DNA of 64,000 nt from Pseudomonadota bacterium (GTDB lineage Bacteria; Pseudomonadota; Alphaproteobacteria; Micropepsales; Micropepsaceae): contig JAJZDZ010000006.1 in NCBI GenBank assembly GCA_021851325.1, positions 62,001 to 126,000 of the forward strand, in the 5' to 3' direction. The notes beneath the pieces were generated by a model that worked only from the letters and a program-made list of their open reading frames with translations, searched no databases and had not been told where the DNA came from. A program made the translations under genes and the position numbers. Positions 24,215 to 30,637 of the stretch are shown in pieces (within the stretch, counting starts at the first letter, position 1; every line of letters starts with the position of its first letter).

Positions 24215-24646
24215 AGCCGGTCTATCGCAAGGCCGACATTCCGGTCGCTCAGCTAAACGGCCGCTTTGTGTACAAACACCGCCTCTCGGTAAGAACGCCG
24301 TTCATGGGAGCTCTCGGCCCAACTTTGCCGTTGCCAACCCGCTCGGGCATTGCCACCTGTTGGCGCTTAGCGGACATTGCATCGGGCGACCGCTTTGGAT
24401 GCAGCAGACACATAGCCGACGCGTTAGGTGCACCGAGAAATGAGCATCAAGACCGCACATCTGGTGTACGTCCGCCGTAGTTGTACCACGTCGCTCTCCG
24501 CGGACAGCGAAACCAGATAGCGCTGCATTATAGCATAACATATTGGTATTAAATCATTATTTCTCTGGCGGGCCGCGACCGACGATGATGAGCGCCATGT
24601 CTACGCCATGACCCTATAGCCGCCGTTGGGCGGTTGCGCCCATCCG

Positions 24647-24674
24647 CAATTTCCGGTAATCTTTCCGGAAATTG
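24647..24674. promoter_or_regulatory. Inverted-repeat operator of the VapBC-type pair
   Basis: CAATTTCCGG (24647-24656) and CCGGAAATTG (24665-24674): a perfect 10-bp inverted repeat with an 8-base spacer, ending 23 bases before the antitoxin ATG. TA complexes usually bind such sites to autorepress. Confidence 0.75.
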
Positions 24675-24697
24675 GCGCAAGGAATAGGAAGGCATGT

Positions 24698-24982
24698 ATG
24701 GCAAGTAAACCAAAGTCTTCTGTCGCAACCCATCGCGCACGCAGAGAGCGCCAAGGCTTCGTGCGGGTCGAGGTCAATGTCCGCAAGGAGGATGCAAGCC
24801 TAGTTCGCCGGGTCGCCTCCGCTTTGTCCGATCCCTCGCGTCAAATCGAAGCGCGCAATCTCCTGCGGCAACGCTTTGCCGAGCCGCCGAAGGTGAGCTT
24901 GAAGGCGTTGCTGGCGTCTGCGCCGCTCGATGGGGTCGACCTCGATCGGAGCCGTGATCTCGGCCGCGACGTCGATCTATGA
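24698..24982 (+). CDS. Antitoxin of a VapBC/FitAB-like pair
   Basis: 94 residues, basic N-terminus (MASKPKSSVATHRARRERQG) then a ribbon-helix-helix-like segment FVRVEVNVRKEDASLVRRVA, and an acidic C-terminal tail (LDGVDLDRSRDLGRDVDL), which is the usual toxin-neutralising part. The family is not one I can name exactly. GGAAGG precedes the ATG, and the TGA overlaps the toxin ATG (ATGA). The inverted repeat upstream fits autoregulation. An in-frame start at 24626 would run through the operator and is unlikely. Confidence 0.82.
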   Translation: MASKPKSSVATHRARRERQGFVRVEVNVRKEDASLVRRVASALSDPSRQIEARNLLRQRFAEPPKVSLKALLASAPLDGVDLDRSRDLGRDVDL

Positions 24983-25407
24983 GCTACCTCATCGATACCA
25001 ACATCATTTCGGAGGTCCGGAAAGGCGAGCGTTGCGATCTGCGGGTTTCCGCCTGGTACGCCTCGATCGCCGACGAGGATCTCTTTCTGAGCACGCTTGT
25101 CCTTGGCGAAATCCGAAAAGGGGTTGAACTTGCGCGCCCCCGAGACGCAGGCAAAGCAGTCGCGCTCGAACGCTGGTTGCGGGAGGTGGAGACCGCATTC
25201 GATGGACGCGTGCTCGGGATCGACAACGCGGTGTCCGATCAATGGGGCCGCATGGCCGCCACAAGGCCTGTTCCGGTTATCGATGGGCTGCTCGCAGCGA
25301 CCGCGTTAGTCAATGGCCTGACGCTCGTGACGCGCAACGACCGCAATGTCGCGGGCCTGGGTACGATGGTGCTTAATCCATTTGCCGAGGGGCCAAATCA
25401 CCATTGA
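24979..25407 (+). CDS. PIN-domain toxin, VapC/FitB-like ribonuclease
   Basis: 142 residues, the normal size of PIN toxins. The acidic metal-binding residues are visible: Asp6 in MSYLIDTNIISEVRKG, Glu in TLVLGEIRKGVEL, Asp in RPVPVIDGLLAATAL and the late Asp/Asn in LVTRNDRNV. VapC enzymes cut specific tRNA or rRNA loops when freed from the antitoxin. Its ATG overlaps the antitoxin stop. Confidence 0.93.
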   Translation: MSYLIDTNIISEVRKGERCDLRVSAWYASIADEDLFLSTLVLGEIRKGVELARPRDAGKAVALERWLREVETAFDGRVLGIDNAVSDQWGRMAATRPVPVIDGLLAATALVNGLTLVTRNDRNVAGLGTMVLNPFAEGPNHH

Positions 25408-25947: not shown

Positions 25948-26176
25948 TGCCCCACCCCCCGAAATCTTTATATTGCTCTGTGGAGCGGCCCCGAAAAGGT
26001 ACCCCGTCGCTGGTGGGCCCAAGGTATTGAAACGGCGATCTAAATCTCTTGACCGCCGGGGTCCCTACCGGCGCCGATCGGCCCCCCGCTGCAAGGGAAA
26101 ATTCTTTCGCCAATTCAATCCTTTATCGCGGTTCGGCGATGGGGTCCCCATTCGGTGCTGATTTACAACCAACTTT

Positions 26177-26186
26177 TGTCATGACA
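26177..26186. promoter_or_regulatory. Palindrome TGTCATGACA upstream of tacA
   Basis: A perfect 10-bp palindrome 42 bases before the TacA start. TacA-TacT complexes autorepress their promoters, so this is a candidate operator, but the site is short and may be chance. The remaining 25948-26228 shows no other feature. Confidence 0.4.
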
Positions 26187-26228
26187 TTGTCTGGCAATTT
26201 TACTAAATTAGGCGGTCAGGAGATAGCC

Positions 26229-26513
26229 ATGCCAAAACATGCAACCCGTTCGGAAAAGCTGGATCTGCGCCTTACCCCAGACGCAAAGCGGACCCTTTCC
26301 GCTGCGGCCGCGGCCTCCGACCGCTCGGTTAGTGAGTTTGTGTTGGAAAGCGCACTGGCGCATGCCAAGGAAACGCTGCCGGACAGGCACAAATTTTTGC
26401 TCGATGAGTTGCATTGGGAGGCGTTTCTGACGGCGCTTGATGCCCCGACACCACCTATGCCGCGACTGAAGCGGTTACTCAACGAGTCGAGCGTCTTTGA
26501 CGAGCACAAATGA
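26229..26513 (+). CDS. DUF1778 antitoxin, TacA-like
   Basis: 94 residues. An N-terminal ribbon-helix-helix (EKLDLRLTPDAKRTLSAAAA, SDRSVSEFVLESAL) and a C-terminal toxin-binding tail (FLLDELHWEAFLTALDAPTP) define the DUF1778/TacA family. AGGAG lies 7 bases before ATG 26229. It overlaps the acetyltransferase start (ATGA). It neutralises and co-represses with TacT. Confidence 0.93.
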   Translation: MPKHATRSEKLDLRLTPDAKRTLSAAAAASDRSVSEFVLESALAHAKETLPDRHKFLLDELHWEAFLTALDAPTPPMPRLKRLLNESSVFDEHK

Positions 26514-27007
26514 CGGCTATGCGGATCGAGAAGCTCCACGCCCGGCACATCCTGGAGCGCTTCGATTGCGGGAAGGAGGCGCTCAATCGTTTCCTCATTC
26601 GCCATGCATTACAGGCACAGTTATCCAACGCTTCTCGGACCTACGTCGCGGTAGAGGAGCACCGAGTCATTGGGTATCACACACTGGTGGTTGGCGAGAT
26701 CGAGTTCGACCAGGCATCGGAGCGACTGAGGAAGGGGCTCGCCCGCTACCCTATCCCTCTCATGGTGTTAGCGCGGCTTGCCGCTCATGTGGAACGCCAG
26801 GGCCAGGGTATTGGCGCCGGCTTGCTCAAGGATGCGCTCATGCGCACCATGAACGCGGCAGATATCGCAGGGATACGAGCTATTGCTGTGCATGCGAAAG
26901 ACCACGCGGCTCGGCAGTTCTACGAACATTTCAATTTCCAACCTTCGCCCACAGACCCGCTGCATCTGTTTCTCCTGATTAAAGACATGAGGGCCCTGAT
27001 TTCATAG
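26510..27007 (+). CDS. GNAT-type toxin, TacT-like
   Basis: 165 residues, GNAT fold: FDCGKEALNRFL start, acetyl-CoA loop RQGQGIGAGLL (R/Q-x-x-G-x-G/A), and the catalytic Tyr in ARQFYEHFNF near the end. TacT toxins acetylate the amino group of charged aminoacyl-tRNAs and stop translation. ATG 26510 gives the overlap with TacA; ATG 26519 is an alternative. tRNA-Ser follows 115 bases later on the other strand. Confidence 0.93.
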   Translation: MTAMRIEKLHARHILERFDCGKEALNRFLIRHALQAQLSNASRTYVAVEEHRVIGYHTLVVGEIEFDQASERLRKGLARYPIPLMVLARLAAHVERQGQGIGAGLLKDALMRTMNAADIAGIRAIAVHAKDHAARQFYEHFNFQPSPTDPLHLFLLIKDMRALIS

Positions 27008-28133: not shown

Positions 28134-28186
28134 CCAAGCGTGTGCCCAAAGACAGCATTTGATGACCTCAAAGGACACACGCTTGG
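28134..28186 (-). other. Large hairpin 3' of the small membrane ORF
   Basis: CCAAGCGTGTG (28134-28144) and CACACGCTTGG (28176-28186) are an 11-bp perfect inverted repeat; beyond one mismatch the stem continues with CC/GG. The loop is about 25 bases. On the minus strand it begins 57 bases after the stop of the small ORF. It could be a transcript end or an element of its own; no T-run follows. Confidence 0.55.
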
Positions 28187-28242: not shown

Positions 28243-28377
28243 TTACTGAATAATAGACGCCACTGAAGCAAGTGCGAGCAGCCAGGTTAAGGCACCAATT
28301 GCAAGTGTCAGCATTCCATCGATCCGATCTTGCAGAGGACGGAACACAAGATGCTTCTTGCTAACTATCGTACCCAT
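28243..28377 (-). CDS. 44-residue single-helix membrane protein
   Basis: A short ORF: start MGTIVSKKHLVFRPLQDRID, then a hydrophobic helix from GMLTLAIGALTWLLALASVA to SIIQ-stop. AGGAG lies exactly 7 bases before the ATG, which with the basic N-terminus and clean helix argues for a real gene (N-in topology). No family recognised. It is divergent from the winged-helix/PD40 regulator at 28511 and is followed by a large hairpin. Confidence 0.65.
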   Translation of the reverse strand: MGTIVSKKHLVFRPLQDRIDGMLTLAIGALTWLLALASVASIIQ

Positions 28378-28510
28378 GTACTTACTCCTTTCGAAACGCG
28401 ATGACTAGGCACGTCACCGCTATCAACGATGATCGCATCCGCGTCTGAGATGAAAGAGTGGGAATATGACGTAAGGGTGATTGTTTGCCGTTGCATCTTA
28501 TAAGGCGATG

Positions 28511-30637
28511 ATGAGTGACAATAAGAGGTTTTCAGCGATGGCGGACAAAATCGAGCTCGCTCGCGAGCCTGACTTCTCACTTGGCTCGCTCAGAATTTCG
28601 CCCTCAACACGCCAGTTGATAACCGAGCACGGGACTGAGCTAGTAGAACCGCGCGTCATGCAGGTGCTTATATGCCTTACCCGGGCGAATGCCGCTGTGG
28701 TGTCCAGAGATCAATTAATTACTACATGCTGGAACGGGCAGGTCGTAGGTGATGACGCCATTAATCGCTGCATTTCTCGGCTACGAAAATACGCCGCAGG
28801 ACATGAGCCGCCGCCATTTACCATCGAAACCATACCACGCGTTGGTTACAAACTGACGGCGAATAACACCAGCACATCGCCACACAATTATCTCGAAAGC
28901 GACATCGCTCGATTTGGCCGAGCCTGGATATTTGAGCATTTGAGACATGTCCGCAGGGTAAACAAATTTATCCTTAGTGCGCTGACCATTATCCTCTTCC
29001 TAGCGACAGCAACTTGGACCCTGCGGTCTGCCAAAAGATGGACGGTTATGGAAAGCAGACCACTCTTGACAACAAATCAACTCGAAGAAGAACCAGCAAT
29101 ATCTCCTGATGGATCCATGATTGCATACGTCGCGGGAACAAATGCCCTTGCCCGCCGGATATATATCAGGCGCCTAAGTCGTGCCCAGCGAACTGCCATC
29201 AGCCCCAAAGATTATTACGCCGGGTCGCCAAACTGGTCTAACGATGACAAACGCATTGCATACGCTACATTTCGTTCCGGTGAACGATGTCACATTTATA
29301 TTGCGCATCTGGGTGAGGAAACAATTGATGAAGTAGGACACTGTACGAACAGGCAACATACTTCGCTCTCATGGGATCGAGCTTCTGGTTTAATATATTA
29401 TGTTGATCGAAGGTACCCAGACGGACCCGACACCATCCTAAGCCTAGACCCATCTACGCACGCCGTAAAACCAGTCACTAATCCACGTCACGATATTCCG
29501 GGCGATCTTGAACCCGCCATCGCACAAAGCGGAAAATACCTCGCATATATCCGTCGGCTTGGGTCCACAAATGACGAAGTGCGCATAACGAACTTAAGTA
29601 CGGGCCGCGAGAGAATTCTCGGGGTTATAAGAGGGCTGAAGTCTATCGCCTGGACCTGGGATTCCGAAACTGTTCTTGCCAGCGTCTCAGATGGAGCAGG
29701 ATCCGAGATTTGGGCCCTGCCCTTGAGCGGTGATCAACGGTATCAGATTTACGCCAGCTCACAACTAATCAATCGGCTGGCCTCCGGTCCCCGGGGCCTT
29801 CTCGCGGCGGAAATCGAGGTGAGCCGGAAAAAGTTAGCACTCGGATCGCAAGTTCCGGAACGCGTAGTCCACACTCTGGATCCTTCAAACGGCTCGACCT
29901 ATTCGCCTACATATTCCAAGAACGGCACGTTAGCCTTCATCTCAAATCGCGCTGGTTCTAACGCAATATGGGCTGCAACCCCACACTCCGTTCCAAAACA
30001 AATATTTGATGGAGGCATGGCTTTACTCGACCGCTTGATTTGGTCACCCAACGGTGAGCAACTTGCCTTTGTTTCCATGGAGAAGGAGGTTGCTTCGATC
30101 AACGTAATTTCCAAAACCGGCAAGACTATCTTCGTAGGACGAACTCGAAGCATCGGTTATGGTATGCCGACGTGGACGTCAGATGGAAGGGCCCTTATTG
30201 TCGCTGACAGGCCGGTGACCGATGCGCAGGAACGCCTTACCAGGATTTCTCTATTTCATATCACTGTTGCACCTCCGGGTTGGCAAAGCGTTACGTCTTT
30301 TCAGAGGAAAGTTTATGCCGTACGATCGGGCGAAAGGGGTATATGGCGTATTGATAGTGGTGTGCGGCAGATCACCCCAAATTATCCCCGCAACCGGATC
30401 TCGCAACTCATCTTCTTCCGGGATAGCGTCTTAATCCCCGAGTTCGAATCGGTGATACCTGGCATTCTTGCTCAGCCTCTTTCTGGTGGCATCCCAACAC
30501 ATTTTTCCTATACCCCAGGAGCAAGCAGCGACACAGGCTTCGCCGTCGACCCCCGTTCAGGCGATATCGTTTATGTAACAGATATCCTAGAAAACGCGCA
30601 CATTGACCTCATGCATCTTCAGCTCCGCAGGTGGTGA
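28511..30637 (+). CDS. Membrane-bound winged-helix regulator with PD40 propeller
   Basis: About 708 residues. N-terminal OmpR/PhoB-type winged helix (LGSLRISPSTRQLITEHGTE, VEPRVMQVLICLTRANAAVV, AINRCISRLRKYA, TIPRVGYKL), one membrane helix (FILSALTIILFLATATWTL), then a periplasmic beta-propeller of TolB/PD40 repeats (EEEPAISPDGSMIAYVAG, GSPNWSNDDKRIAYATF, RLIWSPNGEQLAFVS). It is a one-component CadC-like sensor: it reads a periplasmic signal and binds DNA directly. Start uncertain: ATG 28511 (AAGG upstream), 28508 or 28538. The target may be the divergent small ORF. Confidence 0.88.
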   Translation: MSDNKRFSAMADKIELAREPDFSLGSLRISPSTRQLITEHGTELVEPRVMQVLICLTRANAAVVSRDQLITTCWNGQVVGDDAINRCISRLRKYAAGHEPPPFTIETIPRVGYKLTANNTSTSPHNYLESDIARFGRAWIFEHLRHVRRVNKFILSALTIILFLATATWTLRSAKRWTVMESRPLLTTNQLEEEPAISPDGSMIAYVAGTNALARRIYIRRLSRAQRTAISPKDYYAGSPNWSNDDKRIAYATFRSGERCHIYIAHLGEETIDEVGHCTNRQHTSLSWDRASGLIYYVDRRYPDGPDTILSLDPSTHAVKPVTNPRHDIPGDLEPAIAQSGKYLAYIRRLGSTNDEVRITNLSTGRERILGVIRGLKSIAWTWDSETVLASVSDGAGSEIWALPLSGDQRYQIYASSQLINRLASGPRGLLAAEIEVSRKKLALGSQVPERVVHTLDPSNGSTYSPTYSKNGTLAFISNRAGSNAIWAATPHSVPKQIFDGGMALLDRLIWSPNGEQLAFVSMEKEVASINVISKTGKTIFVGRTRSIGYGMPTWTSDGRALIVADRPVTDAQERLTRISLFHITVAPPGWQSVTSFQRKVYAVRSGERGIWRIDSGVRQITPNYPRNRISQLIFFRDSVLIPEFESVIPGILAQPLSGGIPTHFSYTPGASSDTGFAVDPRSGDIVYVTDILENAHIDLMHLQLRRW

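Follow-up and report, generated by a model that had tools for sequence, protein, structure and literature searches.

A small open reading frame divergent from a PD40 regulator gene

The locus lies in a stretch of DNA of 64 kb, analysed as a whole and called here the window, and comprises a 44-codon ORF, the gene of a transmembrane transcription regulator on the opposite strand, the region between them and a hairpin 3' of the small ORF. The start region of the small ORF reads AGGAG, TAAGTAC and ATG in order, and the AlphaFold2 model of the 44-residue protein showed one helix, from residue 5 to residue 43, in agreement with the preliminary description of a short ORF with a well-spaced AGGAG and one transmembrane helix. 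According to the positive-inside rule, the protein would have a cytoplasmic N-terminal tail of about 20 residues, a membrane helix at residues ~22-43 and almost no C-terminal tail. When ATG ORFs of 30-80 codons were selected in the window for a 19-residue segment with a mean hydropathy of >=2.0 and for an AGGAG placed 5-9 nt upstream, the small ORF was the sole one retained, with an expected number of 0.03 per 64 kb in first-order Markov sequences.

Table 1 Features of the small ORF/regulator locus and of loci with related regulators
Feature	Position	Strand	Description
Hairpin 3' of the small ORF	28134..28186	-	strong; arms CCAAGCGTGTGTCC / GGGCACACGCTTGG; no T-run
44-codon ORF, predicted single-helix membrane protein	28243..28377	-	runs 28377->28243; product MGTIVSKKHLVFRPLQDRIDGMLTLAIGALTWLLALASVASIIQ
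Divergent intergenic region	28378..28537	.	160 bp long in each genome; ungapped, 65% identity
Shine-Dalgarno AGGAG	28385..28389	-	7 nt before the small-ORF ATG; AAAGGAGTAAG identical in the relative
16-bp block	28475..28490	.	minus-strand sequence CGGCAAACAATCACCC, unchanged between the two genomes
Transmembrane transcription regulator, 699 aa	28538..30637	+	Trans_reg_C 37-106; membrane helix ~143-161; PD40 repeats from ~174
~190-residue proteins	L019:641-1261, L028:625-1209, L030:627-1211, L031:631-1191	minus	divergent from PD40 regulators

The regulator exhibited a Trans_reg_C winged helix (PF00486, E 2.5e-10) and PD40 repeats (E 1.6e-24), with a hydrophobic helix at residues 143-161 in an AlphaFold model of low confidence (pLDDT 44); the positive-inside rule would place its C-terminal PD40 part on the periplasmic side. 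With a winged helix and a single helix followed by a sensor part, it is a ToxR/CadC-type transmembrane transcription regulator, and its matches to the NCBIfam CadC and TolB models were far under the cut-offs. The 44-residue protein matched no Pfam or NCBIfam family, and the initial statement that the pair belongs to no known family therefore holds for the small ORF but not for the regulator. We placed the regulator start at 28538 (MADKIELA...) because its ortholog, which starts with MPDKIQLA, has an in-frame TAA just before this position. This stop ruled out the longer N-termini from 28481, 28508 and 28511, and the gap before the regulator, initially given as 133 bases from a start at 28508/28511, is thus 160 bp. 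No paralogue of the regulator was found in the host genome at E 1e-5, which argues that the pairing with the small ORF is specific. In one relative (G008:C329), three related PD40 regulator genes stand in tandem (L012, L025, L032).

In the window, the small ORF is followed after ~1 kb by a tRNA-Ser(CGA) gene, and an identical tRNA sequence is found beyond the ORF in the relative; the tRNA gave the only gathering-level Rfam match nearby, none being obtained in the small ORF/regulator pair. Adjoining this tRNA, on the + strand, a GNAT acetyltransferase gene (26510-27007) follows an overlapping ORF (26049-26513) which, by reading, resembles a DUF1778-type antitoxin, so that the two probably form a TacAT-type toxin-antitoxin pair. 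A VapBC-like toxin-antitoxin arrangement, with a small ORF (24626-24982) overlapping the gene of a PIN-domain protein (24979-25407), was also observed on the + strand.

Conservation in a second genome and evidence for coding

A search for homologues beside the same type of regulator, proposed in the preliminary description, returned one ortholog of the small ORF genus-wide (G005:C134, locus L003), of 43 codons, with the 53% identical product MGTIAGAKRLRVRPQQEVIGDLLTLAVGTLAWFLSLASIAILI. In this MAG of the same genus, "Alphaproteobacteria bacterium REEB323", contig JAGWRJ010000329.1 carries an ortholog of the regulator (59% identical), which the small-ORF ortholog adjoins across a gap of 160 bp, identical to that of the focal locus. 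Between the two small ORFs, 14 substitutions fall at the first codon position, 9 at the second and 24 at the third, with no frame-shifting indel, giving a dN of 0.34, a dS of 1.25 and a dN/dS of about 0.27. In neutral simulations with the same mutation load, 0.17% of the sequences retained the observed identity without a stop. Codon phase was seen in the substitutions of both the small ORF and the regulator, whereas those of the 160 bp between them showed none (17/19/20 by phase). An overlapping minus-strand ORF at 28365-28580 was rejected, its intergenic part being without codon phase and its frame carrying a stop in the ortholog. At the DNA level the small ORF is no better conserved than the intergenic DNA (64% versus 65% identity). 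Because its substitutions are codon-like, the small ORF is very probably translated and a genuine coding gene, as judged from a test made on one sequence pair.

The 16-bp block of the intergenic region is a candidate operator or promoter element, and could be part of the regulator's own promoter. One exact copy was found in the host genome, with six more at 1-2 mismatches and 0 for the reversed control; a simple scan revealed no sigma-70-like promoter. At the other end of the small ORF, the hairpin exhibited a fold z of -4.8 in the window, and the relative has a weaker equivalent (-1.7) in the corresponding position. It is probably an mRNA 3' end or processing structure; given the missing T-run, it is a candidate terminator only. 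Conservation between the two genomes reaches the hairpin and then fades, with a drop within ~160 bp past the small ORF, so that the transcription unit would consist of a promoter, the small ORF and the 3' hairpin, which suggests a short monocistronic mRNA.

The relatives of the host genome place it among the Alphaproteobacteria. The small ORF was present in 2 of the 69 genomes of the genus and 2 of the 96 of the order, and a search of 385 genomes sampled from the class gave no convincing match besides the two known. The gene is restricted to its lineage. Elsewhere the 44-mer gave weak matches (E 0.02-1), most of them inside long open frames, which we regarded as noise, together with a partial match within a 669-codon frame of G277 in the 385-genome search (E 3.3e-4).

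Genes beside related regulators

The comparison covered 28 loci carrying related regulators. In 11 of them (L010, L011, L018, L020-L024, L029, L049, L051), a urcA-like frame was found upstream of the regulator on the opposite strand, counting L011, where the nearest gene is a sub-threshold UrcA match, and L049, where the match is weak and the frame overlaps the regulator. At four other loci (L019, L028, L030, L031) the divergent gene encodes a protein of ~190 residues with an N-terminal hydrophobic, signal-like segment; none of these proteins reached the cut-off of a Pfam or NCBIfam model, and the identity between the L028 and L019 proteins is 40%. The 44-residue membrane protein takes the same position at the focal locus and in its ortholog. 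Judging from this gene order, control of a divergently transcribed exported- or membrane-protein gene would be common among such regulators.

Pairs of a urcA-like gene and a winged-helix regulator gene, the regulator often with PD40, extend across the genus and into sphingomonad-type records. In the host genome the single urcA-like gene found is located elsewhere than the focal locus, and inspection by eye of the short locus around it revealed no winged-helix regulator. In Caulobacter, uranium induces UrcA, a periplasmic protein of unknown function that is controlled by UzcRS (PMC8963506). The pairing of urcA with PD40 regulators is thus a matter of gene order, as the Caulobacter gene is controlled by a two-component system and not by a PD40 regulator (PMC8963506).

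A probable local target of the regulator and its comparison with known systems

The small ORF is probably the gene of an inner-membrane protein that is a local target of the divergent PD40 regulator. The regulator would sense something periplasmic via its PD40 propeller, bind the shared 160-bp intergenic region and switch on the small gene, as may be the case for the urcA-like and exported-protein genes beside its homologues, and the 44-residue protein would then act in the inner membrane. We infer its translation, its control by the regulator, its topology and its role in the envelope from the sequences. The preliminary description had suggested that the small protein might be either a membrane partner of the regulator or its target. 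The link itself is supported, since a second genome carries the same pair with the gap of 160 bp unchanged, and a target is favoured over an obligate partner because a divergent urcA or exported-protein gene stands at this place beside many related regulators.

It is quite improbable that the small ORF is not a gene but a chance frame within conserved regulatory DNA or a small RNA. Its DNA identity does equal that of the flanking intergenic DNA and two sequences only were compared, but the codon-phase bias, an amino-acid identity above the neutral expectation, the conserved Shine-Dalgarno and helix and the intact frame all argue for coding. A type I toxin-like or stand-alone hydrophobic peptide, placed beside the regulator by chance, would agree with an isolated short hydrophobic ORF followed by a strong 3' hairpin; this explanation is very improbable, as synteny and gap are fixed, the host genome holds no further copies, the Shine-Dalgarno region shows no unusual degree of structure (z -0.97) and no antisense promoter was detected by a simple sigma-70-like scan.

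The small helix might also bind the membrane helix or the propeller base of the regulator and tune or stabilise it, as a feedback or co-component partner like MgrB for PhoQ or ToxS for ToxR. Its strict adjacency to the regulator in two genomes and its resemblance in size and single-helix form to MgrB, of 47 residues (PMC8404706), are consistent with this, and an associated protein is known for several transmembrane regulators (PMC10269533). We consider such a partner rather unlikely, because known co-components are encoded downstream in the regulator operon and have domains in the periplasm that are often lipocalin-like (PMC9214523), whereas the small ORF is divergent and its product lacks such a domain, and because the divergent genes beside homologous regulators are of quite different kinds. 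A minimal two-gene module, in which the PD40 regulator induces the 44-residue protein and this feeds back in the membrane, as a new type of co-component replacing the UrcA-type target, is unlikely.

As a probable local target of the PD40 regulator, the small gene belongs to a pair whose larger member shares with ToxR/CadC-type regulators an N-terminal OmpR-type winged helix, one membrane helix and a periplasmic C-terminal part, the latter differing in being a PD40/TolB-like propeller. The 44-residue protein has neither the downstream operon position nor the periplasmic lipocalin-like domain of ToxS/VtrC-type co-components. It resembles small regulatory membrane proteins such as MgrB in its length of less than 50 residues, its one helix and its genetic link to a membrane sensor, but MgrB targets a histidine kinase and its periplasmic tail is functional (PMC8404706). 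Small membrane proteins are routinely missed by annotation, and here a previously unlisted gene for one is evolutionarily supported and has a likely regulator at hand.

The protein also differs from UrcA (TIGR04433), to which it gave no match at E 0.1: UrcA is an exported protein of ~100 residues with an N-terminal signal segment, whereas the helix of the 44-residue protein forms its C-terminal end and the protein is too short for a signal peptide plus a periplasmic domain of ~80 residues. What the two share is the divergent position of their genes beside related regulators. Of more use as a lead than the small gene is the broader association of urcA with winged-helix regulators, which offers a testable regulator-target link for a family whose function the literature describes as unknown.
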